A stretch of DNA of 23,385 bases from a virus. Each line of letters begins with the position of its first letter. The first letter of the stretch is position 1. Made by a program: the position numbers and the translations under genes. This document shows, one piece after another, positions 3,115-20,356 of this stretch. The DNA lies in IMG/VR virus record IMGVR_UViG_3300028590_000087, positions 1 to 23,385 of that record; one strand, written 5' to 3'. Under the pieces are notes generated by a model. The model saw only the letters and a list, made by a program, of their open reading frames with translations. It made no database searches and was not told where the DNA came from.

Positions 3115-3178
3115 GTTAGGACCTAACATCGCGCGTCAGCCTGACATCACCCTGTCGTCAGCCTGATGTCACCCTGAC
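3115..3178. repeat. Dispersed stem-loop repeat, copy 1
   Basis: The unit starts with the dyad gttaggacctaac. Two imperfect tandem copies of a 20-mer follow: gtcagcctgacatcaccctg (3135-3154) and gtcagcctgatgtcaccctg (3157-3176), which match at 18 of 20 bases. tgacatca (3142-3149) can pair with tgatgtca (3164-3171). The same dyad plus 20-mer recurs at 14344-14391, and a related hairpin is at 20315-20356. Confidence 0.7.
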
Positions 3179-3283
3179 ACGGCGCGGCCCCACCGCCGGC
3201 AAGAGTAAGGGGGGCTCGGGCCGGTCGACGGGGCCGCAGGTCGAGGCTAGCTCGGCTCCCCCGGGGATCGCCAGAGGTTCTGC

Positions 3284-3313
3284 TTGGCACACTTTTATTT
3301 CGTTAACGATATT
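3284..3313 (+). promoter_or_regulatory. Candidate sigma70-type promoter
   Basis: TTGGCA (3284-3289, five of six matches to TTGACA), 18-base spacer, GATATT (3308-3313, four of six). The spacer is strikingly AT-rich for this genome. It would drive the RHH gene at 3436 and the block after it. This is a sequence match only. Confidence 0.4.
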
Positions 3314-3435
3314 GCGTTGGTGTGCGGCGGGGCCGCACTAGGTCAAGAGTCGGGCAACCCTGCGCTGGCCGGCGAGAGGGGCCATAATCGCGGACATGCC
3401 CTTCCCGTCACGAAACTGCCTGGCCGGATAACGGC

Positions 3436-3708
3436 GTGCCGGGGCGTAGGGGGCGCCCGCCACTAGTTGACGGGGAGACACTAGAGACGGTTGGCGTACG
3501 GCTGCGCTCTTCCGAGGTTGCAGCTCTGGTGGAAACATACGGATCGGTTAGTGCAGGGCTCAGGGTGGCGGTTGCTCGTCTGGTTGCGAGCGATTCGGCG
3601 GCTGCTAATATCGGGATTCCCGAAAGGGATGCACGAGGCGCCGCTGTCACCCCCCCTGCTTTGGACGGCGGCGCCTCGCCGCGTACCCAGGGGGAGAAAG
3701 ATGTCTGA
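3436..3708 (+). CDS. Ribbon-helix-helix-like protein, paralogue of the protein at 265
   Basis: 90 residues from GTG 3436. There is no good ribosome binding site. The start is supported by the GRPPL motif at residues 6-10, which aligns gaplessly with the protein at 265 through residue 49 (17 identities in 44). Strand (18-24), helix A (25-35), turn, and helix B (37-50) fit the RHH fold. Codon use is unlike that of its neighbours: many A/T third positions (gtt, gca, gaa, aca, agt), which suggests a different origin or a constraint from overlapping DNA signals. The 3' part (after about residue 55) overlaps a promoter-like element and operator at 3584-3627 and looks less protein-like. The inferred role is regulator, perhaps autoregulatory. 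The frame could be partly non-coding at its 3' end. Confidence 0.55.
   Translation: MPGRRGRPPLVDGETLETVGVRLRSSEVAALVETYGSVSAGLRVAVARLVASDSAAANIGIPERDARGAAVTPPALDGGASPRTQGEKDV
3584..3611 (+). promoter_or_regulatory. Candidate promoter overlapped by operator
   Basis: TTGCGA (3584-3589, four of six), 16-base spacer, TAATAT (3606-3611, four of six) sits inside the RHH reading frame. The perfect palindrome at 3612-3622 begins at the very next base, where it would cover the transcription start. It would drive the operon beginning at 3701. Confidence 0.4.
3612..3627 (+). promoter_or_regulatory. Operator-like site 5 (CGGGATTCCCGAAAGG)
   Basis: A perfect 11-bp palindrome CGGGA-T-TCCCG followed by AAAGG. 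It directly follows the -10-like TAATAT, the same arrangement as site 3. A protein bound here would block transcription initiation. This is inference from position and symmetry. Confidence 0.5.
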
Positions 3709-3964
3709 CCACGACTTCTACGTCACGTACACGCTCGGCGTCCGGGACATGTTCGACGCACGCGCAAAGACGCACGTGCTGGCACGTCGCTCGATCAAGC
3801 CGAACACCCGCGTCACCACGGTGCTGTGCGGGCGCGACGTCACCGACCCGCTGGCCTCGCCGTGGGACGAGGAGCCCGTGGCGGTGCGCTGCGCCGCGTG
3901 CTCGGGGCTGCTGGCCGCGCGCCGGGAGAAGGCCCAGTCCCCCGCGTGGAGCGTGGCCCGGTGA
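3701..3964 (+). CDS. Small hypothetical protein with Cys motif
   Basis: 87 residues. ATG 3701 has the strong ribosome binding site gggggag, which selects it over upstream in-frame starts. The N-terminal half is strand-rich (DFYVTYTLGVRDMF). C-x2-C occurs at VRCAACSGLL near residue 68, with another Cys at VLCGRD, a possible zinc ribbon of three or more ligands. It overlaps the RHH frame by 8 bases and shares GTGA with the next gene, so it is the first strongly translated gene of the second block. Function unknown. Confidence 0.7.
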   Translation: MSDHDFYVTYTLGVRDMFDARAKTHVLARRSIKPNTRVTTVLCGRDVTDPLASPWDEEPVAVRCAACSGLLAARREKAQSPAWSVAR

Positions 3965-4272
3965 CCCCCGCCGAGGAGCAGCTGATCGACTTCTCCAACG
4001 ACTGGGCGCTGTCGATGACGGCCCTGACCCAGGCGTTCGAGTCCCTGGGGCGGGCCTCGGGCTCGGCCCAGTTCGCGTTCGAGGCTCTCGAGCGGGTCCT
4101 GGACCTGCACGAATGTGTCCCCCACGCCGACTACGTTGAGGGCCTGTGCCGCGAATGCCGGCGCATCGAGGAGGCAGATCTGCGGTGGGTGGAGACGGAG
4201 AAGTACGGGTACCGGACGAGCCGGTGGCCGTGCCCGACGGCGAGGGCGTGTGGAGCCGGCTCGCTGCGGTGA
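3961..4272 (+). CDS. Small hypothetical protein
   Basis: 103 residues from GTG 3961, overlapping the upstream stop as GTGA. The sequence is mainly helical (EEQLIDFSNDWALSMTALTQAFESLG...FAFEALERVLDLHE). A small Cys/His cluster follows around residues 44-59 (HECVPHADYVEGLCRECRR), which may bind a metal. The last 15-20 residues lie in the overlap with the next gene. GC-rich third positions persist in this frame to about 4245, so the overlap appears real. Function unknown. Confidence 0.6.
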   Translation: MTPAEEQLIDFSNDWALSMTALTQAFESLGRASGSAQFAFEALERVLDLHECVPHADYVEGLCRECRRIEEADLRWVETEKYGYRTSRWPCPTARACGAGSLR

Positions 4273-4544
4273 ACCGCCTGGCGGTGGAGGCCGGGGAGGC
4301 CACGCCGATCGCCTGGCACCTGTTCCAGGGCGTGCTCAGCGCCGAGCGGCACCAGCGCCTGGTCCAGACGCACGACCAGCTGATGGCCCTGCCCGGGGAG
4401 ACGGTCGTGGTCGACGCCGGCGGGGACAAGTACTGGCGCGAGCCCACGGCGGCCCCGCGCGACTGCTGGTACCCCCTGGGGTTGGACTACGGCGACGACG
4501 GGCACCAGATCAAGCTGCCCGCCCGAGTGATGTTCGCGCTGTGA
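4224..4544 (+). CDS. Small hypothetical protein
   Basis: 106 residues if GTG 4224 is used; third-position bias favours a start near here. An alternative GTG at 4185 has a better ribosome binding site (gaggagg, 10 bases upstream) and would add 13 residues. The protein has a helical N-terminal half (VWSRLAAVNRLAVEAGEATPIAWHLFQGVLSAERHQRLVQTHDQL) and a strand-rich acidic C-terminal half. No family recognised. Confidence 0.55.
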   Translation: MAVPDGEGVWSRLAAVNRLAVEAGEATPIAWHLFQGVLSAERHQRLVQTHDQLMALPGETVVVDAGGDKYWREPTAAPRDCWYPLGLDYGDDGHQIKLPARVMFAL

Positions 4545-4554
4545 AGGGAGAGAC

Positions 4555-4737
4555 ATGGCTCGCACGGAACGACGGATGTGGGTCTACGACAGGCAGTCCG
4601 ACGGCTCGCACATCGAGCAGTCGCACCGCGACACGGGCTGCCACCACTGGCTGTGCAACGGGTACAAGCGCCCCGAGCGCAAGAGTGCCCGGGCCAAGGC
4701 CAAGGCCCGGCTGCGCCGGAACCCCGAGGAGGCGTGA
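4555..4737 (+). CDS. Small basic protein
   Basis: 60 residues from ATG 4555 with gggagag just upstream. C-x4-C within a His-rich patch (DTGCHHWLCNGYK, residues about 25-37) suggests metal binding. The C-terminus is a Lys/Arg-rich helix (KSARAKAKARLRR), which suggests nucleic-acid contact. Its stop overlaps the 14-residue open frame at 4737. Function unknown. Confidence 0.6.
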   Translation: MARTERRMWVYDRQSDGSHIEQSHRDTGCHHWLCNGYKRPERKSARAKAKARLRRNPEEA

Positions 4738-4781
4738 TGTTTGAAGGGCTGCGCAACGTGATCGTGGGATGGGAGAGGTGA
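4737..4781 (+). CDS. 14-residue micro-ORF
   Basis: ATG 4737 overlaps the preceding stop (TGATG) and has gaggagg 5 bases upstream, inside the preceding gene. It encodes MFEGLRNVIVGWER and stops at 4781, where the next ATG begins in another TGATG. It may be a coupling device that carries ribosomes to the next gene, or a real peptide. At this length coding cannot be proved from sequence. Confidence 0.35.
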   Translation: MFEGLRNVIVGWER

Positions 4782-4990
4782 TGGCGGTAGACATGGACCA
4801 GGTGGCCTACGGGATCGACGGGAGCCGGGCGGGGATCTACGACGGGGTGATCGCGTGGGTCATGAAGGACGGCACGATCGTGAACCGGTGGGCCGGGGTG
4901 CCGGGCGCCAAGCGCCGGGCTGCGGCCGTCGACCGGTACCTGGCCACTGCGGCCGAGCTGCGCGCCCAGGGGGAGGCCAACGATGTCTAG
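4781..4990 (+). CDS. Small hypothetical protein
   Basis: 69 residues from ATG 4781, overlapping the stop of the micro-ORF. An in-frame ATG at 4769 is possible but lacks a ribosome binding site. The strand-rich N-terminal half (VAYGIDGSRAGIYDGVIAWVMKDGTIVNRWAGVPG) is followed by a helix (AKRRAAAVDRYLATAAELRAQGE). The compact pattern suggests a small folded domain of unknown family. It overlaps the next gene by 8 bases. Confidence 0.6.
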   Translation: MAVDMDQVAYGIDGSRAGIYDGVIAWVMKDGTIVNRWAGVPGAKRRAAAVDRYLATAAELRAQGEANDV

Positions 4991-5657
4991 CCCCATGCCG
5001 GAGATCTCCGAGCAGGACTGGCACATGGGGATGCTGGTCGACGAGGACGGCAACGGCCCCATCGCGCTCGGCGAGCCCTTCGCCACCATCGTGTGCGCCC
5101 ACTGCGGCCAGCCATGGATCTGCGACGGGACCGACGGCGTCCAGCGTGCCCCCATGGACGTCGTGCGCGACGCCACCGAGTACCTGCTGGCGGGCAACGC
5201 CTACGGTGCCCAGGCGCTCGTCATGCTCGAACCGCTCTCGATCGCGCACCTGGCCGACCTGACCATGGCCTCCACGATGTTCGCCGGGCGCCTGCTGCGC
5301 ACGGTTGCCGGCCAGGAGGAGAGGTTCGCCCAGGGCGACGGCTTCGCCGCCCTGCGGGTGGGCCGGCTCGACACCGAGACTGGGGAGATCGAGGACACCA
5401 GCATCGAGGAGGCCCCGCCCGCCGTGCGCTACGGGGGCCGGATGGTCACCGCCGCCGTCAACGACGACAAGGAGACGCTCTTCGCGCTGATGTACGCCGC
5501 CGTCGAGGAGGTCGTGGAGAAGGAGGAGGAGGGGGACGAGGACGCGATCAACCTGTTGCTCGACCTGCTCATCATGACCTTCGCCACGATCGCCGAGATC
5601 GGCGGCGAGGTCCGCGAGATCTGGGCATCGCAGCAGGGTTCCACCGAAACCGAGTAG
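4983..5657 (+). CDS. Hypothetical protein with Cys motif
   Basis: 224 residues; ATG 4983 has gggggagg just upstream. CAHCGQPWIC near residues 38-47 is a possible zinc site. The rest is mostly helical: LADLTMASTMFAGRLLRTVAG, a Glu-rich stretch (EEVVEKEEEGDED), and a hydrophobic helix (INLLLDLLIMTFATIAEIGGEV). That last segment is long enough to span a membrane but is followed by acidic residues, so buried packing is as likely. It ends one base before the left arm of the inverted repeat at 5659. Function unknown. Confidence 0.7.
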   Translation: MSSPMPEISEQDWHMGMLVDEDGNGPIALGEPFATIVCAHCGQPWICDGTDGVQRAPMDVVRDATEYLLAGNAYGAQALVMLEPLSIAHLADLTMASTMFAGRLLRTVAGQEERFAQGDGFAALRVGRLDTETGEIEDTSIEEAPPAVRYGGRMVTAAVNDDKETLFALMYAAVEEVVEKEEEGDEDAINLLLDLLIMTFATIAEIGGEVREIWASQQGSTETE

Positions 5658-5658
5658 C

Positions 5659-5728
5659 GGTACGGACACTCACAGGCGATCCTGATCTCAACGACGAGCA
5701 TCAGGGGGTTCTCGTGAGTGTCCGTACC
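5659..5728 (+). promoter_or_regulatory. Long hairpin enclosing the start of the DUF7352-like gene
   Basis: ggtacggacactcac (5659-5673) pairs perfectly over 15 bp with gtgagtgtccgtacc (5714-5728). The right arm is itself the first five codons of the next gene. An inner stem, cctgat/atcagg (5681-5686 and 5700-5705), reaches into the Shine-Dalgarno G-run (5704-5708). Folded RNA would hide both ribosome binding site and start codon. Translational control is an inference. Confidence 0.65.
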
Positions 5729-6007
5729 ATCTGGAAGATCCCGATCGCCCACGGCCAGAGCCGTGTTGCCGTACCGCCCGGCTCCACGTTGCGTTCCATC
5801 GCGATCGCACGGGGTGAAATGTGCGCCTGGTACGAAGTGGACCCCGCAATGCCGGCGTCTGAGGATCACCTTTTGTGGGTGATCGCCACCGGGGACAGCG
5901 TCCCGCCCAATGGTGAGTACTTCACGATGCTGATGGATCACCTGGGCTACGTGTGGCACGCGTACGCCTGCACGGATGCGGCGAAAGCGCGAGCCCAGAT
6001 TCGCTGA
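5714..6007 (+). CDS. DUF7352-like small phage protein
   Basis: 97 residues from GTG 5714, with a G-run (ggggg) five bases upstream. The pattern resembles the actinophage family I know as DUF7352: a short N-terminal strand (TIWKIPIAHGQSRVAVPPGSTLRSIAIARGEMCAWYEVDP), then a repeated strand layout ending LLWVIATGD...YVWHAYACT. The fold is predicted to be all beta. Function is not established. The start codon and ribosome binding site lie within the hairpin at 5659-5728, which is unusual. The family assignment is from memory and not certain. Confidence 0.65.
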   Translation: MSVRTIWKIPIAHGQSRVAVPPGSTLRSIAIARGEMCAWYEVDPAMPASEDHLLWVIATGDSVPPNGEYFTMLMDHLGYVWHAYACTDAAKARAQIR

Positions 6008-6023
6008 CAGTTCCTCTGGACTT

Positions 6024-6051
6024 CTGACGGGACGTCGGGTGACGGTATACA
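6024..6051 (+). promoter_or_regulatory. Candidate promoter for the packaging/structural block
   Basis: CTGACG (6024-6029), 16-base spacer, TATACA (6046-6051); each box matches four of six consensus positions. It lies in the gap between the DUF7352-like and ParB-like genes. This is weak support from sequence alone. Confidence 0.3.
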
Positions 6052-6119
6052 CCTAGACGGAACACGCCGTACAGGGTTGCAGGGGGCATCTGTGACGAGC
6101 TTTTGTTGCGTGCGCTTCG

Positions 6120-6154
6120 CTGTTCCCACACGCCAAGGGGGGGTGTGGGAACAG
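6120..6154 (+). promoter_or_regulatory. Hairpin ending on the start codon of the ParB-like gene
   Basis: ctgttcccacac (6120-6131) pairs perfectly with gtgtgggaacag (6143-6154) across an 11-base G-rich loop. The last base of the right arm is the first base of the GTG start. The G-run that could serve as ribosome binding site lies in the loop, so folding would present or restrict it. Confidence 0.5.
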
Positions 6155-6705
6155 TGAGCGCCGTGCGATTTCACGACGACGTCCGCGAGATGCTCGTGGA
6201 TATAGAGACGGTCAAGCAAGCGGATAGGAACCCCAATCAGGGGGACGTCGAGGCGATCGCCGAGTCGATCGTGCTCAACGGCTACGCCGTGCCCGTCATC
6301 GCCCGTCGCGACACCCGCGAGATCATCGCCGGGAACCACCGGTACGCCGCCCTGCTCTCCCTCGGCGCCACCCTGATCCCGGTGATCTGGGTCGACATGA
6401 ACGACGAGCAGGCCGCGAGGTTCCTGCTGGCGGACAACCGCACCGCACGCCTGGGCCGAGACGACCTCGGGCTGCTCGCAGCGGTCCTGGACGAACTCGA
6501 CGCCTCCCGCCACGGCCTCCTCGGCACCGGCTACACGCACGAGGACCTCTCCCGCTTCCACCAGATCATCGAGAACCCCCTGTCGTTCGACTCGGGCAAC
6601 GATGCACGCCAGCGCGTGGGCGCCAAGTCCGTCTTCGAGTGCCCCGAGTGCGGGCACCGCTGGGGTCCTGGCCTGCGCGTCACACCGTCGGAGGACTACC
6701 TGTGA
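6154..6705 (+). CDS. ParB-like nuclease-domain protein
   Basis: 183 residues from GTG 6154. Residues about 13-95 form a ParB N-terminal domain: IETVKQADRNPNQGDVEAIAESIVLNGYAVPVIA, then the signature IIAGNHRYAALLSLG with the G-N-H-R motif, then VIWVDMNDEQAARFLLADNRT. The C-terminal segment has a CxxC (ECPECGHRWGP) that could bind zinc. ParB-like proteins commonly sit next to terminase genes in actinophages; roles in DNA processing are proposed but not settled. GTGA overlap with the next gene shows coupling. An upstream in-frame TTG at 6103 was rejected because it would encode through the hairpin without a ribosome binding site. Confidence 0.8.
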   Translation: MSAVRFHDDVREMLVDIETVKQADRNPNQGDVEAIAESIVLNGYAVPVIARRDTREIIAGNHRYAALLSLGATLIPVIWVDMNDEQAARFLLADNRTARLGRDDLGLLAAVLDELDASRHGLLGTGYTHEDLSRFHQIIENPLSFDSGNDARQRVGAKSVFECPECGHRWGPGLRVTPSEDYL

Positions 6706-6923
6706 ACGACCTGCTCGACTACCTCACCCGCGCCGTCGACGGCGACGCCATCCCCCGCCCGATCGACGGGGAGTCGATGGACGTCTACCGCCTGCGCGCC
6801 GCCCACGCCGGGGCGATCGTGGGGATCAAGTGGATCACCGACCGCAACACCGCCCTCGCGGCCGAGGACGCCGCCGCTGCGGCCCAGGGCGCCGAGCCTG
6901 ATGTTGTGGTGGACCCGGAGTGA
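6702..6923 (+). CDS. Small hypothetical protein before terminase
   Basis: 73 residues from GTG 6702, overlapping the ParB-like stop by GTGA. It looks helical (DLLDYLTRAVDG, YRLRAAHAGAIVGIKWITDRNTALAAEDAAAAAQ) with an acidic C-terminus. Its stop overlaps the GTG of the terminase small subunit. No family recognised. Placement suggests an accessory of packaging, but this is only context. Confidence 0.65.
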   Translation: MNDLLDYLTRAVDGDAIPRPIDGESMDVYRLRAAHAGAIVGIKWITDRNTALAAEDAAAAAQGAEPDVVVDPE

Positions 6924-7495
6924 GTGCGGATCTGGGGGTGAAGATCCCTCGCGACATCGTGGCTGAGGCGGCGCAGATCGGTACGCGTGGTGCGGAGGCG
7001 GTGCGTCGGGCGGAGCTGGCGGAGCGGGTCAAGAACATGGACCCGCCGACGCGGGCTGCTGCGGCGATGGTGCTGGCGGTGGAGGGGTGTCCGTACCCGG
7101 AGATCGCGAACGTGTTGGACTACCCGACGGCCAAGCTGGCCAAGGAGGCGGTCTGGGCGGCGATCGCGGATGCGGGGGCGGATCACGACGACGTCGCGCG
7201 GATGCGGTCGCTGCAGTCGGCGCGGTTGGACAAGCTGTTGTACTCGGTGATGCGTCGGGCGACGGCGAACTCGGACCCGGACCAGCTGTCCTATGCGCGG
7301 GTGGCGTTGGCGATCTTGGATCGTCAGGCCAAGTTGTTCGGGATCGACGCGGCGCAGCACGTGGTGGTGTACACCCCCACGCAGCGGGAAATCGCGCAGT
7401 ATGCCGAGCAGGTCACTAGCCTGATGCGTACCCAGGCTGGGGCCATCGAGGCGGACATCATCGTCGAGGCAGAGATCGAGGACGATGATGCCTAG
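6920..7495 (+). CDS. Probable terminase small subunit
   Basis: 191 residues from GTG 6920, overlapping the previous stop. The middle has a helix-turn-helix-like segment (PPTRAAAAMVLAVEGCPYPEIANVLDYPTAKLAKEAVWAAI, residues about 41-81). A helical segment follows, ending LSYARVALAILDRQAKLFGID, which is typical of small terminase subunits that end DNA-recognition and oligomerisation regions with this pattern. The C-terminal tail is acidic. The small subunit would recognise phage DNA and recruit the large subunit encoded one gene downstream. Identification relies on pattern and location. Confidence 0.7.
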   Translation: MSADLGVKIPRDIVAEAAQIGTRGAEAVRRAELAERVKNMDPPTRAAAAMVLAVEGCPYPEIANVLDYPTAKLAKEAVWAAIADAGADHDDVARMRSLQSARLDKLLYSVMRRATANSDPDQLSYARVALAILDRQAKLFGIDAAQHVVVYTPTQREIAQYAEQVTSLMRTQAGAIEADIIVEAEIEDDDA

Positions 7496-7916
7496 TCATC
7501 GTGCGCCTCGCCAGCATCTACCAGGGGACGCCGCAGGGGGGCGTCCCGGGTGGCAGGGCCGTCTTCTGGCGCTCGTGGAAGGTAACGAGCGCCAGAAGGC
7601 AGCCGGGAGGGGTTCGGGGTCGCGGCATTGGCCGGCTCGGACCGTCCTGATTTCCGACATCGAGTTCCGTGGTCTGCTGCACCAGGTGGCCAGTGCGCGG
7701 GGGATGTCGCGGGCTGGGTACGTGCGTCGGGCGGTGGCGGCGTTCGTGGCTGCGGACCTGGGGGTGGAGCTGGCTGAGGTTGCGGTGCACATGCCGCGCC
7801 CTACCCCTGATGGTGGGCCGATGGCGTTGCCGGCGGCTGAGCACCCGCGTAACAACCCGGGCAAGTGGGCTGATGACGGGCTGGGGTTCGGGTCGTGGGA
7901 GGTGGCTCGTGGTTGA
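7485..7916 (+). CDS. RHH-like protein between terminase subunits
   Basis: 143 residues from ATG 7485 (ATG 7488 equally possible); overlaps the small terminase by 11 bases and the large terminase by 8. The centre (RTVLISDIEFRGLLHQVASARGMSRAGYVRRAVAAFVAADLG, residues about 51-93) has the strand-helix-helix pattern of ribbon-helix-helix DNA-binding proteins. It lacks the GRPPL motif of the two regulators at 265 and 3436. The Pro-rich tail (MPRPTPDGGPMALPAAEHPRNNPGKWADDGLG) looks flexible. The position suggests a packaging accessory or regulator; neither is proved. Confidence 0.6.
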   Translation: MMPSHRAPRQHLPGDAAGGRPGWQGRLLALVEGNERQKAAGRGSGSRHWPARTVLISDIEFRGLLHQVASARGMSRAGYVRRAVAAFVAADLGVELAEVAVHMPRPTPDGGPMALPAAEHPRNNPGKWADDGLGFGSWEVARG

Positions 7917-9354
7917 GAGCTTCGACCCGGATCTGCCGAACCGGTGGACGCCGTCGGCGCAGGAGAAGTTCCTCGAGATCATGTCCGTGGCTGGGGAGCA
8001 GCGGGTCTGGTACTGCACCCGGGGGCGTACGTGTGATGGGAACCCGCACGACGGGTACGACTACCAGCACGCTCGGGCGGACCAGTGGCCTCCCTCGTTG
8101 CGCGAGGCGTGGATGTTCTGGCTGATGATCTCGGGTCGTGGGGCGGGCAAGACGCGGGCCGGGGCCGAGTGGTTGCGGAACATGACGCGGTACACGGGGC
8201 GGTTGTGCATGGTGGCCCCCACGGCGGCGGACCTGCGCGACACGATGATCGAGGGCGAGTCGGGGATCTTGCGGGTGTGTGAGAACGCGGGGTACCTGCC
8301 GGACTGGTCCCCGTCCAAGCGTCGGTTGACGTTCCCGAACGGGGCGGTGGCGCTGGGGTACACGGCCGAGGAGCCGGACCGGTTGCGTGGGCGCAACGAC
8401 GGCGCGGGGTGGCTGGACGAGCCGGCTCACTACCCGAACGTGGGCTACGTGTGGGACATGTTCATGTACGGGCTGCGGCACGGCACGCACCCGAGGGTCG
8501 CGATCACCACCACCCCGACCCCGTCGGACTGGTTGCGGATGATGCTGGCCGATGAGGCGGCGCGGGTCTCGGTGGTCTCGACGTTCGCGAACGAGGCGAA
8601 CCTGGCCCCGGCGTTCGTCGACCAGATGCGCAAGAAGTACGCCGGCACCCGCCAGGGGCGCCAGGAGCTGTACGGGGAGCTGCTCGACGACGTCGAGGGC
8701 GCGCTGTGGAGCGGGGAGCTGCTGGACGAGACGCGGCGCCGCGAGCACCCGGAGGTGGTGCGCACCGTGGTGGCCGTGGACCCGGCCGGCACGTCCGCCA
8801 AGCGCTCGGACATCACCGGGATCGTGGTGTGCGGCAAGGGGTTCGACGGGCACCTGTACGCGCTGGCGGACTACTCGGGGCAGTACACGCCCCGGGAGTG
8901 GGCGCTGGCGGCGCTGCGCGCGTTGGAGGAGTGGGACGCGGACGCGATCGTGGCCGAGACGAACTACGGCGGGGAGATGGTCCTGTCCAACATCCGGCAC
9001 AACGTCGAGCTGGGCGCGGTGGTTCCCCGGCTCAAGGCGGTCAACTCTCGGCGCGGGAAGTTCATCCGCGCCGAGCCGGTGTTCGCACTGTTCGAGCAGG
9101 ACCGGGCGCACATGCTCGGGCACCTGCCGGATCTAGAGGCCCAGCTGTGCGGCTGGGTGCCCGGGTCGGGGAAGTCCCCGGACCGGATGGACGCCATGGT
9201 CCACGGCTTCCACGAGCTGGCGCAGTTCAACGACGGGTCGATCGCCGTGGCCCACGGGCGCATGCGCCCCCCGGAGAACGACTCGCGCGGCTCCCACTAC
9301 AAGGACCTCAAGAAGATGCTGAGAGGGGCACTGCCTGATGCTCGACGCCGGTGA
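7909..9354 (+). CDS. Terminase large subunit (packaging ATPase/nuclease)
   Basis: 481 residues; GTG 7909 has ggagg six bases upstream. The N-terminal ATPase carries Walker A SGRGAGKT at about residues 75-82, Walker B-like GAGWLDEPAH at about 165-174 (D170/E171), and a coupling-type motif ITTTPTPSDW near 205. The C-terminal nuclease is consistent with VVAVDPAGTS near 286-295, VAETNYGGE near 348, and DRMDAMVHG near 426, where conserved acids would bind metal. The enzyme pumps DNA into the prohead through the portal and cuts it. It overlaps the next gene by 17 bases. Length and motifs fit the family well. Confidence 0.95.
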   Translation: MVESFDPDLPNRWTPSAQEKFLEIMSVAGEQRVWYCTRGRTCDGNPHDGYDYQHARADQWPPSLREAWMFWLMISGRGAGKTRAGAEWLRNMTRYTGRLCMVAPTAADLRDTMIEGESGILRVCENAGYLPDWSPSKRRLTFPNGAVALGYTAEEPDRLRGRNDGAGWLDEPAHYPNVGYVWDMFMYGLRHGTHPRVAITTTPTPSDWLRMMLADEAARVSVVSTFANEANLAPAFVDQMRKKYAGTRQGRQELYGELLDDVEGALWSGELLDETRRREHPEVVRTVVAVDPAGTSAKRSDITGIVVCGKGFDGHLYALADYSGQYTPREWALAALRALEEWDADAIVAETNYGGEMVLSNIRHNVELGAVVPRLKAVNSRRGKFIRAEPVFALFEQDRAHMLGHLPDLEAQLCGWVPGSGKSPDRMDAMVHGFHELAQFNDGSIAVAHGRMRPPENDSRGSHYKDLKKMLRGALPDARRR

Positions 9355-9722: not shown

Positions 9723-11537
9723 ATGCCACGCAGCAAGACAGCGGCCAGCACGAGCCTGTCTGTACCCGAAACCTCGGGCCAGACCTCGCTCGTGGCTGCC
9801 GCCCGCCGCCTGACGGGCAAGCCCGACGTCGGGAAGATCAGTCGCACCGGACGCGGCTGGCAAGAGAAGTCCTGGGAGTTCTTCGACACCGTCGGAGAGT
9901 TCCGCTACGGCGCCGACTGGGTGGGCAACATGCTCTCCAAGGCGACGCTGTACCTGGCCTACGACGGCCTGGCGCTCGCGGCCAACGAGGATCATGGGGA
10001 GGCCTCTACCTACGTCTCCTCGTTGTTCGGGGGGACCGAGTCCCAGGGCGAGCTGCTGCGACAGTGCGGGGTGCACCTGACGGTCGCCGGCGAGCTGTTC
10101 ATCGTGGGCTGGACCGAGAAGGGCGCCGACCGGTGGCAGGTCGTGGCCGCGACCGAGCTCTCAGCCCGGGCCGGCAAGTGGTACGCCTCGGGCAAGGTCC
10201 TGGGCGACGGCAAGGACCCGTACATCCTGCGCCTGTGGCGCCCCCACCCCCGGCGCGGGGAGATCGCCAACGCCCCGGCCCGCGCGGTCCTGGCGATCCT
10301 CTCGGAGATCGACTCCCTGACCAAGCACGTCTTCGCGCAGATCGACTCGCGCCTGGCCGGTGCCGGCATCCTGATGCTGCCCTCCGAGCTGACGATGGCG
10401 ACCTCGGCGCAGAACGCGGCCGGGAACCAGCAGAACGAGGGCACCGCCGCCGACCGGTTCCAGTCCCAGCTGCAGGAGGCGATGGTCACCGCGATCGGGG
10501 ACCGCGAGGACGCCTCGGCCATGGTGCCGATCGTGATCCTGGCCCCGGGCGAGCAGATCGGCAACGCCAAGCACCTGACGTTCTGGTCCGAGCTGGACAA
10601 GCAGGCCATCGAGCTGCGCAACGAGGCCATCCGCCGCCTGGCCCTGGGCCTGGACCTGCCCCCCGAGATCATCACCGGCACCGCCGACCTCAACCACTGG
10701 TCCTCGTGGGGCGTCTCGGAGGAGGCCATCAAGGCCCACGCCGAGCCCCTGCTGAACATGGTCACCGAGTCGTTGACCACCGGGTACCTGCGCCCCCTGC
10801 TCATCGACGACGGCATGGACCCCGCCGAGGCCGAGCGGTACTCCATCGAGGCCGACACCTCCCTGATGCGGGTGCGGCCCAACCGCTCCCAGGAAGCGTT
10901 CGAGCTGTACGACCGGGGCCAGCTGTCCTCCAAGGCGCTGCTGCGCGAGGTCGGGTTCGACGCGACCGACGCCCCCGACGCCGACGAGACCAAGCTGTGG
11001 TTCCTGCGCAAGGTCGCCTCCGGCTCCACCACCCCCGAACTCGTCGCCGCAGCCCTGCAGGCGCTCGGGATCGGCATCAATCCCGCCTCGGCCGGTGACA
11101 GCGCCCCGGCCGAGGCGCGACCAGTGCCCTCCTTGGAGGACCACCCGGTCACTGGACCCCCCGAGCAGCCCACCACCGTGGCGCCCTCCTCTGATGATGG
11201 GCTGTTCGGGGCCGCAGAAGTCATCGTCTACCGGGCCCTGGAACGCGCCGGGAACAGGCTCAAGAACCGGGTCGGCACCCAGCGCCTGGCCAACATCCCC
11301 GCCGCCGAGGCCTACCTGTTCGTCCCGGTCACCACCGGCCAGCTCGACTACCTTCTCGAGGACGCGTTCACCAACCTCGGGCGCTACTCGGTCTGCGCCA
11401 AGATGCCCGCCGAACGACTGGAAGCCGCGCTCGACCGGTACTGTCGCACCCTGCTCGTGGAGGCCCGCCCCCACGACCCCGGCGTCCTGGCGACCTTCCT
11501 CGATTCCCAGCGGCGCACCGCGTTGGAGTGTGCCTGA
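9723..11537 (+). CDS. Portal protein
   Basis: 604 residues from ATG 9723 with gggggag just upstream. The portal is a dodecameric ring at one capsid vertex through which DNA enters. Support: location between terminase and head maturation genes, length, and features such as WEFFDTVGEFRYGADWVGNMLSKATLYLAY (residues about 49-80), FWSELDKQAIELRNEAIRRLALGLDLPPEIITG (about 289-321, a typical portal helix and P-P-E-I loop), and WGVSEEAIKAHAEPLLNMVTESLTTGYLRP. The last 120 residues after a Pro/Ser-rich linker form an extra domain (AEVIVYRALERAGNRLKNRVGTQRL) reminiscent of the portal-linked segments preceding MuF proteins. It overlaps the next gene by one base (TGATG). Confidence 0.9.
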   Translation: MPRSKTAASTSLSVPETSGQTSLVAAARRLTGKPDVGKISRTGRGWQEKSWEFFDTVGEFRYGADWVGNMLSKATLYLAYDGLALAANEDHGEASTYVSSLFGGTESQGELLRQCGVHLTVAGELFIVGWTEKGADRWQVVAATELSARAGKWYASGKVLGDGKDPYILRLWRPHPRRGEIANAPARAVLAILSEIDSLTKHVFAQIDSRLAGAGILMLPSELTMATSAQNAAGNQQNEGTAADRFQSQLQEAMVTAIGDREDASAMVPIVILAPGEQIGNAKHLTFWSELDKQAIELRNEAIRRLALGLDLPPEIITGTADLNHWSSWGVSEEAIKAHAEPLLNMVTESLTTGYLRPLLIDDGMDPAEAERYSIEADTSLMRVRPNRSQEAFELYDRGQLSSKALLREVGFDATDAPDADETKLWFLRKVASGSTTPELVAAALQALGIGINPASAGDSAPAEARPVPSLEDHPVTGPPEQPTTVAPSSDDGLFGAAEVIVYRALERAGNRLKNRVGTQRLANIPAAEAYLFVPVTTGQLDYLLEDAFTNLGRYSVCAKMPAERLEAALDRYCRTLLVEARPHDPGVLATFLDSQRRTALECA

Positions 11538-14192: not shown

Positions 14193-14348
14193 ATGGCACC
14201 GTGCAACTGCGGGTCCAAGGGCAACAAGTTGGAGTACATCGTGCAGTTCCCCGACGGGACCTCCAAGACGTTCAACACCGAGGTCGAGGCCAAGATCGCC
14301 ACCCAGCGCAAGGGCGGCACGTACAAGGCCCAGACGAAGAACCGTTAG
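14193..14348 (+). CDS. DUF7196-like small Cys protein
   Basis: 51 residues; ATG 14193 follows aaggaga 7 bases upstream. It begins MAPCNCGSKG, then a strand-rich core (LEYIVQFPDGTSKTFNTEVEAKIATQRKGGTYKAQTKNR). This matches the actinophage family I know as DUF7196, small proteins with an N-terminal C-x-C-G near capsid genes. Function unknown. Its stop codon TAG lies inside the dyad gttaggacctaac that begins repeat copy 2. Confidence 0.75.
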   Translation: MAPCNCGSKGNKLEYIVQFPDGTSKTFNTEVEAKIATQRKGGTYKAQTKNR

Positions 14349-14391
14349 GACCTAACACGTCAGCCTGACATCACCCTGATGTCAGGCTGAC
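14344..14391. repeat. Dispersed stem-loop repeat, copy 2
   Basis: The dyad gttagg-a-cctaac (14344-14356) matches copy 1 exactly. The hairpin after it has a 15-bp perfect stem (14359-14373 and 14377-14391) with loop ccc. Its left arm plus loop carries the same 20-mer as copy 1, gtcagcctgacatcaccctg. It lies at the end of the DUF7196-like gene, with no T-run, and could end or stabilise that mRNA. Confidence 0.75.
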
Positions 14392-14393
14392 GC

Positions 14394-14508
14394 GTGTCCA
14401 CTGGACACCTGTTCGATCACAGGTCAACATGGTGACCAGAAGAAGTGCCCCGTCACGGCGTAGCCGGACAGGAATTCCCTGTCCCTACGCCCTTACGGAG
14501 GCACTTCC
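14394..14508 (+). promoter_or_regulatory. Structured RNA leader of the major capsid gene
   Basis: Nearly every base can pair in consecutive hairpins: gtgtcc-act-ggacac (14394-14408); acctg-8 nt-caggt (14407-14424); ggtca-acatgg-tgacc (14422-14437); then a nested structure with gaagtgcc/ggcacttc (14442-14449 with 14500-14507), gcgtag/ctacgc (14458-14463 with 14485-14490) and ggacagg-aattc-cctgtcc (14466-14484). The outer arm includes two bases of the GGAGG ribosome binding site (14497-14501) of the gene at 14509. Confidence 0.6.
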
Positions 14509-16146
14509 GTGTCTGACTTCCAGATCCCCGAGGACCTTGGTGCCCTCGATGACAGCGCGCTCGCCGAGGCGCTGGACCAGGCTCTCGCCACCGCAGCGTC
14601 CTACAACGACGTCGCCGACGAGGACCTCACCGACGAGGACCTTGACCAGCTCAAGGCGCTCGCAGACTTCGCCACTGCTGCGCGGGAGAGTGTTTCTCAG
14701 CGCCAGGAGGCAGCCAACGCTCGCTCGGCCGAGATCGCGGCAGCACGTGCGACGCTGACCGCCCCCGAGGTCGTCGAGGGCGAGATCATCGAGGACGCCC
14801 CGGTCGCCGAGGAGGCCAAGGAGCCCGTCGTCGCCGCCGCCCGCAAGCCCATCGTGGCTCGCGCGGCCGTCGCCAAGGCCCCCAAGGCCGACGAGATCGT
14901 CCCCACCAAGGCCCTGGCGACGCTCACCGCGAGCGCCGATGTGCCGGGGTTCGGGATCGGGTCGGACCTGGGCGACCTGGACGAGGTCGGCAAGGCCGTC
15001 GTGGCGCGGATGCAGGCGCTTCCCACGCACCGTCTGGGCGGGGAGAAGGGCATTCAGAACCGGTACAGCGTCGCCAAGATCGACCTGTCGCAGGTTCGCA
15101 CCCAGACCCTGAACCAGACCGAGTTCCGCGACGACCAGGCGCTGCTCGCAGCGGCCGGTCGTGAGGCTCGCCTGCCCGGTGGTTCGCTGACGGCTGCCGG
15201 TGGCTGGTGCGCCCCGTCCGAGACGCTGTACGACCTGTGCTCGATCGAGTCGACCGATGGTCTGATCGACCTGCCCACGGTCAACGTCTCGCGCGGTGGT
15301 CTGCGCTTCACCAAGGGCCCGCAGTTCTCGGACCTGTACACCGACGCGGACCTGGGGTGGATTCTCACCGAGGCCGAGGTCATCGCCGGTACCCCCGAGA
15401 AGACGTGCATCGACATCACGTGCCCCCCGTTCGAGGAGGTGCGTCTGGACGCGATCGGTCTGTGTGTGCGGGTGCCGCTGCTCACCCAGGCCGCGTACCC
15501 GGAGCTGGTGCGCCGCACGATCGAGCTCGCGCTGATCGCTCACCAGCACAAGGTCGACGCGAACCTCATCGGGCGCATCGTGGCCGGGTCGACGGCGCTG
15601 GACGTCACGGGTCAGTTCGAGACCACGATCGACTCGATCGCCAAGCTTGAGCAGGCGGCGAACTACATCCGCCAGGCCGACCGCATGGCGTTCTCCGAGA
15701 CCCTCGAGATGCTCGCCCCGTACTGGTACAAGGCCACGGTCCGCGCGGACCTGGCGCGCCGCACCGGGGTGGACCTCATCAACGTCACCGACGCCACGAT
15801 CGAGGGCTACTTCGCTCAGCGCGGTCTGCGTATCCAGTGGCTGTACAACTACCAGCCGCTGACGCTCACCGGTGGCGCGGTCACCACCCCCGAGACGGCT
15901 GAGGTCGTCGTGTACCCGGCCGGTACCTGGGTCAAGGGCACCACGGACGTCATCTCGCTCGACGCGGTCTACGACTCGCAGAGCCTGCTGCAGAACATGT
16001 TCACGGCCCTGTTCGTCGAGGAGGGCGTGATGGTCGCCAACACGTGCTTCGAGTCCTACAAGATCTCGCTGCCGACCTGCGCATCGGGTCGGACCGGGGC
16101 TGCGGACATCACGTCCTGCATCTACGAGGCCGCTGTTACCCCGTGA
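14509..16146 (+). CDS. Major capsid protein (HK97-like)
   Basis: 545 residues from GTG 14509 with GGAGG 7 bases upstream. The first 130 or so residues are acidic and helical (DDSALAEALDQALATAASYNDVADEDLTDEDLDQLKALADFATAARESVSQRQEAANARSAEIAAARATL), the usual N-terminal scaffold-like region removed by the protease. The capsid fold follows: LPGGSLTAAGGWCAPSETLYDLCSIESTDGLIDLPTVNVSRGGLRFTKGPQF, a typical HK97-type start. A long helical P-domain-like region includes AAYPELVRRTIELALIAHQHKVDANLIG. The C-terminal half has two Cys residues in the last 50. The product is expected to be abundant; codon use here is more even (ggt, cgt) than elsewhere. The structured leader upstream suggests tight control. 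Confidence 0.9.
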   Translation: MSDFQIPEDLGALDDSALAEALDQALATAASYNDVADEDLTDEDLDQLKALADFATAARESVSQRQEAANARSAEIAAARATLTAPEVVEGEIIEDAPVAEEAKEPVVAAARKPIVARAAVAKAPKADEIVPTKALATLTASADVPGFGIGSDLGDLDEVGKAVVARMQALPTHRLGGEKGIQNRYSVAKIDLSQVRTQTLNQTEFRDDQALLAAAGREARLPGGSLTAAGGWCAPSETLYDLCSIESTDGLIDLPTVNVSRGGLRFTKGPQFSDLYTDADLGWILTEAEVIAGTPEKTCIDITCPPFEEVRLDAIGLCVRVPLLTQAAYPELVRRTIELALIAHQHKVDANLIGRIVAGSTALDVTGQFETTIDSIAKLEQAANYIRQADRMAFSETLEMLAPYWYKATVRADLARRTGVDLINVTDATIEGYFAQRGLRIQWLYNYQPLTLTGGAVTTPETAEVVVYPAGTWVKGTTDVISLDAVYDSQSLLQNMFTALFVEEGVMVANTCFESYKISLPTCASGRTGAADITSCIYEAAVTP

Positions 16147-16151: not shown

Positions 16152-16189
16152 CCTGGTCCCCCCGCCGGCGGCCCGGCGGGGGGACCAGG
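16152..16189. terminator. Strong GC-rich hairpin after the major capsid gene
   Basis: cctggtccccccgccgg (16152-16168) pairs perfectly over 17 bp with ccggcggggggaccagg (16173-16189) around the tetraloop cggc. It starts 6 bases after the capsid stop. There is no T-run. It may attenuate downstream transcription or protect the capsid mRNA end, so that capsid is made in excess. Confidence 0.6.
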
Positions 16190-16222
16190 CGAGACCCACC
16201 TTCCTGAGAGGAGGTAGGGCCG

Positions 16223-18865
16223 ATGGCACTACGAGCACCTGAGCGCATCGAGGCACCGGCAGTCGCGCCGGCCCTCGGCGGTCTGCTGGGCGTCGCCTCG
16301 ATCACCGAGTCCGGTGACCGTGTGATGAACGGCGTCACGTACTTCTCCTTCCTGTGCGGCAAGGCCGGCATCGCGCCGGGCCTGTGCGACGTCGCACCGG
16401 GGGTCACGTTCGACCAGGAGAAGCTCTTCACCGGTGGGGAGGTCGTGGAGGGTCAGCCCTTCCCGGTCTACGCCGGTGTCATCTGCGACCTGCTGGGCGG
16501 GGGCTACGAGGAAGCTGCTCGTGCCCGGCTGGCCGGCGGGGAGGAGCGGGCCGTTGGGCGCGCGTTCTACGAGGTCTCGTTCGCCGGCGGGTTCCCCACC
16601 GGGGACGCGTTCGCGGGCACGATCGCCACCGAGGACGAGCTGCTCGCAGCGATCGGTGAGCTTGAGCAGTACGCCGGTGAGAACTACGCCGGGCTCCCGG
16701 TCCTGCACATGAACCGGGCGACCGCTGCCCGGGCCCTCAAGTGGGACCTGATCGACAACGACTCGATCGACGGGACCCTGCACACCAAGCAGGGCACCCC
16801 CGTGGCGAACAGTCCCGGGTACCCCGACGGGATCGTGTGGATCACCGGCGCCGTGCACCTGTGGCGCACCTCGGTCCAGGCGTACGACGTCAACGACGTC
16901 ATGAACAACCAGGCCCTCTCGCTCGCCGAGCGGGTCTACACGGTCGCGACCGACTGCATCCTGGCCTGGGCGGGGGAAGAGCCCCCCGTAGATACCGCCC
17001 CGGTTCTCACGGACCTGGACCCCGACTCGATCCGCACCGGTGTCGCCACGACCGTCACGGTCTCTGGCACCGGCTTCACCGCTGACACCAAGTTCTACGT
17101 CGACGGGGAAGAGATCGCAGCCGTGGTCGACGCCGGGGCGGGTACTGCACAGGTCGTCATCCCCGCCCCCACCGGGGCGGACACCCTGGTCATCACGGCC
17201 TCCAACGGCGGGGCGCAGTCCAACGCCCTGTCGCTGGCGGTCGTGGTCCCGGTCGCTCCGGTCCTGACGTCGGTGGACCCCACGATCTACCCGCGCGTGG
17301 CGGGCACCCAGTGGGACACCGTCCTGACCGGTGTCTTCGCCCCGTGGGACGCGGTCACGACCCCGTCCACGTTCGTGGAGACCTCGCGCACCGCCACCAC
17401 GATCACCGGGCACTGGACGACCACGGCCAACGTCAGCCAGAACTTCGACGTCACCGGCCCCGGCGGGATCTCGGCCCTGGCGACCCAGACCGGGGCCAAC
17501 TACCCGGTGGTCTCGGCCACCTACACCCCGACCACCGCCCCCACCGGGTCGACCGTGTACGTCTCGTGGCAGGGGGTCAGCGCGGACCCGGCCACCGACG
17601 TCGTCCTGGTCGACGGGGAGCAGTACACGCTGCGCGTGGTCGGCAGCCGCACCGGGTTCGACTACACCTTCACCGAGCCCGAGGGCTCCACGGTCACGTT
17701 CAAGCTGCTGCGCTATGGCCTGCTTGAGTCCGCGAACTCTGGGTCGGTGCTGGTGGGCCCGGCGGCGCTGGCCCCGGTCATCACGTCCATCTCCCCGAAC
17801 CCGGGGTACGCGAACGAGACGATGAACTCGGTCCAGGCAGCCAACCTGGCCACCGTCGCGGGCCTGACCCGGTTCTACATCGACGGGGTCGAGTTCCCCA
17901 TCACGTCCTACGGCGCATCCTTCGCCAGGGTCGCGGTCCCGGCAGGCACGCTGTCCGTCGGAGACCACCAGGTCGTGCTCAGCAACGGCCCGGGCCTGGA
18001 CTCGGCGCCGTTCACCTGGCCGGTGGGCCTGCGCCCCTCGCTCACCTCGATCTCCCCGACGTCGGTCACGCGCCCGGGCCCGTGGACCATCACCGCGACC
18101 GGCACGTTCCCCACCGGCACGATCATGCACGCCGGCAACCCGAACATCCCCTACGCCCAGGTCTCGGCCACCGGCACCGAGATCGTGTACACGGTCCCCG
18201 ACCGTGCCCCGGCCAGCCAGGTCGCCCAGTACGCGGCCGTCCCGCCGCAGAACGCGACGTCGACCTCCCGGCCGCTGACGATCCTCGAGAACCCTGTCCC
18301 GACCCTGACCTCGATCTCCCCCAACCCTGGGCCTCGTGGCCAGGGGTGGGAGTACACGCTGACCGGGACCAACTTCACCGCGACCGGGACCACGGTCTCG
18401 GTCAACGGGCAGTCCCCGGCGGTCACCTACGTCTCCCCCACCCAGATCACCGTCACCGCCAACATCACGGCCGGCGTCGGGGAGTTCACCGTCACTACCG
18501 CCGCCGGCACCAGCGCCATGGTCGAGATCACCACCGAGGCGCTGCCGAACTTCGCCCCGGCCGCGACCGACCCGCCCACCGTCCCCCCGGACACCGAGAC
18601 CTCGGTCGTGTTCATCACCTCCAACGTCGGGGACGGGTCGAACATCGTGGCCCGCGAGACCGACGCGACGGGCGACACGATCATCGGCGACCTGCCGGTC
18701 ACCGCCACCACCGGCTCGACCATCACCGTCACCATCCCGGCCCGCCCGGCCGACTCGACGGTGTACGTGCGCCCCTACCGCACCACGCTGCCCGCCGGTG
18801 CCCAGACCGACCCGGCCGTGCCCCCCAAGGCCATCGCCGTGGTCGCCCCCGCAGAGGAGCCCTGA
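16223..18865 (+). CDS. Head-associated protein with IPT/TIG array
   Basis: 880 residues from ATG 16223 (gaggagg upstream). Residues 1-255 resemble a second head protein encoded after the capsid gene in many actinophages, with an encapsulin/capsid-like pattern (ARARLAGGEERAVGRAFYEV, AIGELEQYAGENYAGLPVLHMNR, ANSPGYPDGIVWITGAVHLW). From about 260 onward come about five or six IPT/TIG-type Ig-like modules, beginning near residues 261, 347, 430, 518, 605 and 693, each marked by an LTS(I/V)(S/D)P-like opening. A Thr/Pro-rich C-terminus follows. Such modules bind polysaccharide or other ligands in other systems; surface display on the capsid is an inference. Overlaps the next gene by one base. Module boundaries are approximate. 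Confidence 0.75.
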   Translation: MALRAPERIEAPAVAPALGGLLGVASITESGDRVMNGVTYFSFLCGKAGIAPGLCDVAPGVTFDQEKLFTGGEVVEGQPFPVYAGVICDLLGGGYEEAARARLAGGEERAVGRAFYEVSFAGGFPTGDAFAGTIATEDELLAAIGELEQYAGENYAGLPVLHMNRATAARALKWDLIDNDSIDGTLHTKQGTPVANSPGYPDGIVWITGAVHLWRTSVQAYDVNDVMNNQALSLAERVYTVATDCILAWAGEEPPVDTAPVLTDLDPDSIRTGVATTVTVSGTGFTADTKFYVDGEEIAAVVDAGAGTAQVVIPAPTGADTLVITASNGGAQSNALSLAVVVPVAPVLTSVDPTIYPRVAGTQWDTVLTGVFAPWDAVTTPSTFVETSRTATTITGHWTTTANVSQNFDVTGPGGISALATQTGANYPVVSATYTPTTAPTGSTVYVSWQGVSADPATDVVLVDGEQYTLRVVGSRTGFDYTFTEPEGSTVTFKLLRYGLLESANSGSVLVGPAALAPVITSISPNPGYANETMNSVQAANLATVAGLTRFYIDGVEFPITSYGASFARVAVPAGTLSVGDHQVVLSNGPGLDSAPFTWPVGLRPSLTSISPTSVTRPGPWTITATGTFPTGTIMHAGNPNIPYAQVSATGTEIVYTVPDRAPASQVAQYAAVPPQNATSTSRPLTILENPVPTLTSISPNPGPRGQGWEYTLTGTNFTATGTTVSVNGQSPAVTYVSPTQITVTANITAGVGEFTVTTAAGTSAMVEITTEALPNFAPAATDPPTVPPDTETSVVFITSNVGDGSNIVARETDATGDTIIGDLPVTATTGSTITVTIPARPADSTVYVRPYRTTLPAGAQTDPAVPPKAIAVVAPAEEP

Positions 18866-19089
18866 TGTCCATCAAGGAGGGCGAGGTGTTCGTGGCCGGC
18901 CTGACCACAGCCAACGCCCGAGACCTGATCGCCCGGGCCAAGGCCAAGGACATCGACCCCAGAAGCATCCGCGTCGACTCTGACGGCGGATTCATCGTCC
19001 CGGCCGAACTCATGGCCGCCGACGAGACGCCCAAGCCCACCCGGGCTCGGCGCAAGACACCGACCAAGTCCGCCAAGGGCAAGGAGTAG
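18865..19089 (+). CDS. Small basic-tailed protein
   Basis: 74 residues from ATG 18865, overlapping the previous stop (TGATG). The first half is KEGEVFVAGLTTANARDLIARAKAKDIDPRSIRVDSDGGFIVPAELM, a compact helix/strand pattern. The last 25 residues are basic (KPTRARRKTPTKSAKGKE), which suggests an extended, nucleic-acid or acidic-surface-binding tail. No family recognised. It ends four bases before the next gene. Confidence 0.65.
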   Translation: MSIKEGEVFVAGLTTANARDLIARAKAKDIDPRSIRVDSDGGFIVPAELMAADETPKPTRARRKTPTKSAKGKE

Positions 19090-19092
19090 ATC

Positions 19093-20304
19093 ATGGGTGC
19101 GAGCAAGTGCTTCTCCCCCGTCCGCGGACGGGCCATGCGTGTCACCAAGCTCGATGGCTGTGGACGCCCCGTCTACGGCGATTCGAGCGTAGGAGTCACC
19201 GACGGGTTCGTGACGATCTCGTTCACCGCGAACACCGACGAGGGCGAGGAGATCTCGGTCACCAAGGCCAACGGCCAGATCTGTGTGCGCGAGACCCCGT
19301 GCCCCACGTTCCTGGGGTACTCGACCGAGATCGAGTTCTGCAACGTCGACCCGGCGCTGTTCGCGATCCTCACCGGTCAGGACACCGTCACCGACAGCTT
19401 CGACGGCACCGACGCCGGGTTCCGCATCAACTCTGACGTCTCGGCCTGCGACAGCGGTTTCGCCCTGGAAGTGTGGACCGGCACCCCGGGCGTGGCCTGC
19501 GCCCCCGAGACCGACGCTGGCGCCAACCCCGACGCCTCCCCCGGCGGCTACCTCCTGCTGCCCTACATGCAGGGCGGGGTGTTCGGCGACTTCGAGATCA
19601 CCAACGGCGCGATCTCCTTCACCGTCACCGGCGCCGCGACCAAGACCGGCTCCGGTTGGGGCCTTGGCCCCTACGACGTCGTGCCCGACGTCGCGGGCGA
19701 CCCCGGCCCCCTGGCCACCCCGATCCAGTCCGGGGACCACCTGCACATTCAGTACACCGACGTCGCACCCCCCGAGGCCTCCTGCGGCACCAAGCCGCTG
19801 CTCAACCCGAACGGCGCCGAGATCACCGCCGTGGTCTCCACCCCCTCGGGCCTGAGCGTGCTGTTCACCCCGACCCCTCCCGGGGTCGACCCGTGGTGGA
19901 TCGACTTCGGCGACGGCACCTGGGACTACTCGGAGACCGGCGCCGGCATCTCCCACACCTACGCCATGGCCGGGACCTACACGGTCACCGCCTACCGGGG
20001 CTCCACCTCGGTCACCTCCACGGTCACCGTCGCGGCCACCCCCCCGGTCGCCCCCTCGATCACGTCCCTGAGCCCGGTCTCGGGCCCGGCCGCTGGCGGC
20101 ACCGCCGTCACGATCACCGGCACCGGCCTGACGACCATCACCTCGGTCACCTTCGACGGGGTCGCGGGCACCGCGCTCAACGTCTCCTCGGCCACGTCGC
20201 TGACCGTCACCACCCCTCCCGGCACCGTCGGGGACGTCGACGTCGTGGTCACCGGCTCCGCCGGCACTGACACCGAGGTGGACGGGTTCGAGTACACCGC
20301 CTGA
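19093..20304 (+). CDS. Probable major tail protein with PKD and TIG domains
   Basis: 403 residues from ATG 19093, with aaggag upstream overlapping the end of the previous gene. The first 255 residues look like an actinophage tail tube protein: RAMRVTKLDGCGRPVYGDSSVGVTDGFVTISFTANTDEGEEISVTKANGQICV..., TEIEFCNVDPALFAILTGQ, and a C-terminal core with GVFGDFEITNGAISFTVTGAATKTG. Residues about 266-316 form a PKD-type domain (WIDFGDGTWDY...SHTYAMAGTYTVT). Residues about 322-403 form one IPT/TIG module (SITSLSPVSGPAAGGTAVTITGTGL). Tail tube proteins with C-terminal Ig-like domains are known; here the domains are in the same frame, without a shift. The identity as tail protein is likely but from memory. 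Confidence 0.65.
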   Translation: MGASKCFSPVRGRAMRVTKLDGCGRPVYGDSSVGVTDGFVTISFTANTDEGEEISVTKANGQICVRETPCPTFLGYSTEIEFCNVDPALFAILTGQDTVTDSFDGTDAGFRINSDVSACDSGFALEVWTGTPGVACAPETDAGANPDASPGGYLLLPYMQGGVFGDFEITNGAISFTVTGAATKTGSGWGLGPYDVVPDVAGDPGPLATPIQSGDHLHIQYTDVAPPEASCGTKPLLNPNGAEITAVVSTPSGLSVLFTPTPPGVDPWWIDFGDGTWDYSETGAGISHTYAMAGTYTVTAYRGSTSVTSTVTVAATPPVAPSITSLSPVSGPAAGGTAVTITGTGLTTITSVTFDGVAGTALNVSSATSLTVTTPPGTVGDVDVVVTGSAGTDTEVDGFEYTA

Positions 20305-20307
20305 TCC

Positions 20308-20356
20308 CCCCTGTCAGGGGTGACGTCAGCCTGACAACAGGCTGACGTCACCCCTG
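20308..20356. repeat. Dispersed stem-loop repeat, copy 3 with competing hairpin
   Basis: A 19-bp perfect stem (20315-20333 and 20338-20356) with tetraloop acaa includes gtcagcctgac. A shorter hairpin, cccctg-t-cagggg (20308-20320), shares bases with its left arm, so the two cannot form together. There is no T-run. It lies just after the tail protein stop and may act as a terminator or RNA-end stabiliser. Confidence 0.7.

Follow-up and report, generated by a model that had tools for sequence, protein, structure and literature searches.

Which function, if any, is shared by a short sequence that recurs at three non-coding sites of one phage genome? The question was raised for the IMG/VR virus record IMGVR_UViG_3300028590_000087, in which a preliminary description recognised a dispersed family of stem-loops at 3115–3178, 14344–14391 and 20315–20356, and suggested factor-dependent termination, RNA stability or protein binding as a common role. 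The window analysed here is this whole record (23,385 bases). It is probably a fragment of a larger genome, and the copy numbers given here refer to these 23,385 bases.

Gene order in the virus record

The gene order is like that of a Bclasvirinae-like or Arthrobacter–Microbacterium type phage. The following genes define the positions discussed below.

7669–9354: terminase gene, followed by the portal gene and then a protease fusion
14193–14348: small gene (phrog_32120 in the family scan; DUF7196 under the cut-off)
14509–16146, + strand: major capsid protein gene, from tblastn to annotated phage capsid proteins; copy 2 lies before it and the hairpin at 16152 after it
16223–18865: TIG-domain protein gene, which occupies the place of the capsid pentamer protein
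19093–20304, + strand: major tail protein gene (phrog_792 major tail protein, E 3e-77), followed by copy 3
20384–21223: adaptor gene

Immunoglobulin-like domains of the TIG (and PKD) type are appended to both the 16223–18865 protein and the major tail protein. ARAGORN called a tRNA-Thr at 16743–16816 on the minus strand, antisense within the gene at 16223–18865, which is probably a false positive. Two more long hairpins, at 7561–7600 and 6117–6157, are found close to where genes begin in the stretch from the ParB-like to the terminase gene.

An 11-bp unit common to the three copies

The non-coding elements identified in the window are listed here.

3115–3127, + strand: 13-bp palindrome GTTAGGACCTAAC, read directly, 5' of copy 1; the same word is found at 14344–14356
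3135–3178, + strand: copy 1, four GTCASCCTGAY units of 11 bp in direct tandem, within a 492-nt non-coding gap
14344–14356, + strand: the 13-bp palindrome GTTAGGACCTAAC again, sharing bases with the stop codon of gene 14193–14348 (the small gene)
14358–14392, + strand: copy 2, a 16-bp perfect stem capped by a CCC loop and made of three 11-bp units, in the gap between the small gene and the capsid gene
16152–16189, + strand: 17-bp perfect hairpin without a T-run and without the 11-bp unit, 6 nt past the capsid stop codon
20315–20356, + strand: copy 3, 19-bp perfect hairpin with an ACAA loop and 11-bp units, in the gap between the major tail and adaptor genes

Direct reading confirmed that the 20-mer GTCAGCCTGACATCACCCTG is present at 3135–3154 and 14359–14378, each time with the upstream dyad GTTAGGACCTAAC, and the related third hairpin was also where it had been described. 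What the three copies have in common is shorter than first described, namely an 11-base near-palindrome, GTCASCCTGAC, repeated head-to-tail in exact 11-bp phase, with four units at 3135–3178, three at 14359–14391 and about four at 20314–20357. In order, the units read GTCAGCCTGAC, ATCACCCTGTC, GTCAGCCTGAT and GTCACCCTGAC in copy 1; GTCAGCCTGAC, ATCACCCTGAT and GTCAGGCTGAC in copy 2; and TCAGGGGTGAC, GTCAGCCTGAC, AACAGGCTGAC and GTCACCCCTGC in copy 3. The palindromic half-sites GTCA and TGAC are kept and the central triplet varies. With at most one mismatch allowed, GTCAGCCTGAC matched 10 times on the strands of the window, compared with 0.82 ± 0.89 times in shuffled sequences. The longest word shared by copies 1 and 2 is 21 nt and that shared by copies 2 and 3 is 14 nt; among 989 pairs of junctions taken from different genomes, the longest shared word was 11 nt at most.

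Copy 1 is a poor stem-loop: its predicted RNA fold is weak (z −3.7), with CC/CC internal loops and four C·C oppositions. The 492-nt gap that contains it comes after the gene at 2455–2943, which encodes an HTH-like protein and has an ordinary T-run terminator. This canonical intrinsic terminator (2976–3015) has a stem of 15 positions, one of them mismatched, and then GCTTTTTT; it contrasts with the T-less hairpins described below. Directly 5' of copy 1, the non-coding stretch 3036–3108 is also folded (z −3.1), with a closing stem formed by CCCGAAACT and AGTTTCGGG. A tRNA was considered as the source of this fold and rejected, as none was called there; the stretch had no Rfam match either.

Hairpins at the borders of the capsid and major tail genes

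Copies 2 and 3 form strong hairpins. The arms of copy 2 (14358–14373 and 14377–14392; RNA z −9.1) begin 10 nt past the stop codon of the small gene and lie 5' of the capsid gene; the first mismatch outward from the perfect stem is A-C, not G-U. Copy 3 (RNA z −9.1) likewise starts 10 nt past the major tail stop codon and ends 27 nt ahead of the adaptor start. The location of both hairpins just past gene ends, and the lack of a T-run in their tails, agree with the preliminary description, as does the 19-bp stem of copy 3; the perfect stem of copy 2, given there as 15 bp, is 16 bp long. The hairpin at 16152–16189 was absent from that account. The gap that it occupies between the capsid gene and the next has an RNA z of −5.3, and 33 nt separate position 16189 from the next gene start.

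The word CGTCAGCCTGACA, common to copies 2 and 3, falls within the 5' arm in copy 2 and runs from the arm into the loop in copy 3. Because the two copies pair their shared letters in different registers, they are not one structure that was copied but separate hairpins built from the same unit. With copy 1 poorly folded and the sequence found in no relative searched, the notion of a dispersed stem-loop family was not supported in the sense of one structural family.

The 16-, 17- and 19-bp stems are G+C-rich, as in intrinsic terminators, but no U-tract is found directly 3' of them, the tails of the set formed by copies 2 and 3 and the 16152 hairpin being GTCCACTG, CGAGACCC and CACCCCTC. An Rfam scan of the window gave 0 matches at or above the gathering cut-off.

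The leader of the capsid gene (14441–14508) also contains nested stems, which pair its Shine-Dalgarno sequence (z about −7.3). The same plan, consisting of a Shine-Dalgarno stem, a GTAG/CTAC stem and an inner stem, was observed in Arthrobacter phage leaders and in loci L092 and L095. An alignment of six capsid leaders showed no changes on both sides of a pair and no covariation. It is possible that this fold mediates translational control of capsid synthesis.

The hairpin position, not the sequence, is found in related phages

Searches for the repeat beyond the window returned no further copy. Exact and degenerate patterns of the 20-mer and of the array had no match in IMG/VR, blastn against the phage collection identified no copy of the repeat, and the degenerate form gave six single hits in 85,000 reference genomes, about the chance expectation. 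For copy 1, a search through the gene at 1488–2453 gave no relatives, and arrays were present in none of seven loci identified through the adaptor gene; a record with a 91% identical terminase (L002) spans none of the three sites. The letters common to copies 1–3 appear, from these searches, to be peculiar to this one virus.

We read the same junctions, namely small gene to capsid, capsid to next gene and major tail to next gene, in locus L001, in 21 annotated phages and in about 80 IMG/VR loci found by their capsid protein. The relatives carry long hairpins at these three junctions, with sequences unrelated to those of the window. Across 23 syntenic segments (410,588 bases, from relatives that are partly related to each other), 44 of the 77 long hairpins with a stem score of at least 11 were located in the three junctions, which total 7,114 bases or 1.7% of the sequence scanned. 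A T-run was missing in 42 of the 44 and present in 2. This phage group has many such hairpins, whereas the preliminary description had considered an element of this kind exceptional for a compact phage genome.

The 70 nt after the capsid stop codon had a median RNA z of −3.45 over 88 loci, with 58% below −3, compared with a median of 0.0 and 2% below −3 for random windows, which are mostly coding. About 40% of the relatives are without strong structure after the capsid gene, so the hairpin is not indispensable. Where present, it usually begins 6–13 nt past the stop codon, and its loop is GGCCCA-like in many relatives. According to annotated coordinates, a hairpin that follows the capsid or tail gene typically ends about 20–35 nt ahead of the next start codon, Shine-Dalgarno sequence included. 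Outside the window, one hairpin sequence placed at two such junctions was seen only in Arthrobacter phage Tank (L015), where an identical 26-nt hairpin follows the capsid and major tail genes (9253–9278 and 11468–11493).

Selection on the RNA strand

Compensatory changes had been proposed as a test of the repeat itself; we sought them at the hairpin position in relatives, since no close relative spans copies 2 and 3, and the outcome favours structure. In 11 phages the post-capsid hairpin could be aligned around the GGCCCA-like loop. Of 14 pairs in this alignment, 13 had changed on both sides with pairing kept, and 94% of cells were paired compared with 38–54% when the partners were slid as a control.

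Mismatches within the stems provided a second measure. On the coding strand, the junction hairpins contained 44 G·U and 5 A·C mismatches (p 8e-9), or 28 and 5 after similar hairpins had been collapsed (p 7e-5), whereas hairpins elsewhere contained 15 G·U and 14 A·C. In a DNA palindrome G·T and A·C should be equally tolerable, since a G·T seen from one strand is an A·C seen from the other. For an RNA hairpin the transcribed strand alone counts, and G·U is the only one of the two that it accommodates; the bias of 44 to 5 therefore indicates selection on RNA. The junction hairpins of the relatives thus show compensatory change on the transcribed strand, as would be looked for in an RNA stabiliser or punctuation element.

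A covariance model built from the 11 phages produced hits at +4 to +6 nt past the capsid stop codon in 10 further loci (1.04 Mb searched); the E-values were mostly 0.02–0.9, and the hits are convincing by position. The hairpin at 16152 in the window itself, which has a different loop, is not recovered by the model at E<1.

Proposed function and alternative explanations

Given where the hairpins lie, how they covary in relatives, the RNA-strand bias of their mismatches there and the absence of T-runs, we consider it fairly probable that copies 2 and 3 and the 16152–16189 hairpin punctuate the late transcript as intercistronic RNA elements, with the unit copied locally. The model sets them in a class of long G+C-rich RNA hairpins that, in this actinophage-like group, flank the capsid gene on either side and follow the major tail gene, and that fold about 6–11 nt past the preceding stop codon. 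The lack of a U-tract and the little promoter room before the next gene mean that transcription most likely continues through the hairpins; the late transcript may be read through or partly attenuated. After endonucleolytic cleavage or partial termination, the hairpins could mark where the abundant capsid and tail mRNAs end and shield those 3' ends, which would raise capsid and tail protein over the products of downstream genes. The unit itself was probably propagated within the genome, by copying or by template switching. The simplest account may be that, with such copying, template switching made a perfect hairpin out of a quasi-palindromic array, such that an 11-bp unit local to this phage would have been recruited into two hairpin positions. 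The shared role suggested at the outset would, on this evidence, hold for the RNA structures of copies 2 and 3, with a stability- or termination-like function in the transcript; as a protein-binding DNA site it is disfavoured for the junction hairpins, with copy 1 standing apart.

The hairpins could instead be true terminators, tailless or factor-aided, with the downstream genes served by their own promoters. We regard this as unlikely. A role for tailless termination has been proposed for actinobacteria, and the stems are stable, G+C-rich and directly past gene ends. The comparable stem-loop after the major tail gene of Cluster O phages has been interpreted as a terminator (PMC4351075). However, 42 of the 44 junction hairpins are without a T-run, although the same window carries a canonical T-run terminator at 2976–3015, and the next gene, about 20–35 nt from the foot of the hairpin, leaves no room for a promoter. 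Mycobacterial RNA polymerase reportedly requires a U-tract, in work attributed to Czyz et al. in 2014, which also counts against the terminator reading. Furthermore, late transcripts of actinophage L5 extend beyond the capsid gene to one terminator (PMC5712189). Full termination at the hairpins is accordingly disfavoured. Less likely still, in our estimation, is a role at the DNA level, in which each 11-bp unit, spanning one helical turn, would bind a dimeric protein of the phage or its host and the hairpins would be a by-product of the palindromic unit. The exact 11-bp phase in three copies, with GTCA/TGAC kept and the central triplet variable, would suit such sites, as would the precedent of the 17-bp palindrome of Corndog, interpreted as a dimer site. 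Yet relatives keep hairpins at the same junctions but not this sequence, the G-U over A-C bias indicates RNA-level selection for the class, the 16152 hairpin is without the unit, and only three clusters occur in 23 kb. A DNA operator, disfavoured for the junction class, may still apply to copy 1, which would suit it as a direct array with kept half-sites and a poor fold in a long non-coding gap.

An improbable combination of both ideas would have conserved gene-dosage hairpins in this phage group, the loop of the post-capsid one (GGCCCA in a subset) being read by an RNA-binding protein or nuclease of phage or host, together with the 11-bp unit as a DNA operator upstream, at copy 1, in this phage; if true, this operator would link late-promoter control with control of the capsid and tail messages. 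That a mobile or host-derived repeat of the MITE or REP type was inserted at three places is very improbable. The dispersed, intergenic location and the 13-mer and 20-mer common to two sites would fit, but no copies were found in IMG/VR or the phage collection, the six degenerate single hits in 85,000 genomes are about what chance gives, and the register and spacing of the units vary between copies.

Comparison with known systems

REP-type 3' stabilisers and phage RNase III processing sites are intercistronic hairpins that stabilise or process mRNA. Like these, the hairpins favoured here as RNA punctuation lie between genes that are probably co-transcribed, beside a highly expressed gene and without a T-run. 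Unlike them, they keep to the borders of the capsid and tail genes in many phages, their sequence turns over and the stems are mostly 12–19 bp. Stems of 16–19 bp are at most compatible with an RNase III site. Intrinsic (rho-independent) terminators share the stable G+C stem after a gene and differ in the U-tract, missing here, and in that here the downstream gene is immediate.

In Cluster O mycobacteriophages, too, a G+C-rich stem-loop follows the major tail gene, with TTTCT after it (PMC4351075); in our set, by contrast, 42 of 44 hairpins have no T-run and the next gene lies about 20–35 nt on. The 17-bp palindromic repeats of that cluster, with 34 copies in Corndog (PMC4351075), and the stoperators of Cluster A are also short repeated motifs in non-coding gaps of an actinophage, and those of Cluster O are palindromic. 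There, however, 34 identical sites occur, many of them in genes, whereas here three clusters of phased 11-bp units were found, two of which were made into long hairpins. Repeats of the stoperator or Cluster O type would be expected as numerous copies of one conserved site that related phages also keep; the 23 kb of record contain three clusters, and no arrays were found in the relatives or in IMG/VR.

Intercistronic hairpins are already known as a kind; of a conserved set around the capsid and tail genes of this group, no description was found in the openly accessible literature searched. Of greater interest than the three starting repeats is the class itself, with its constant location and its signature of selection at the RNA level. 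A repeat noticed in a single phage can turn out to be one local version of a structural position that is widespread, and the elements at this position are non-coding ones for which we found neither an annotation nor an Rfam family. How hundreds of coat subunits and few neighbour products are obtained from one long late transcript is an outstanding question for most actinophages. Hairpins in fixed places, with RNA structure kept while sequence changes, would offer a simple, testable answer to coat dosage.
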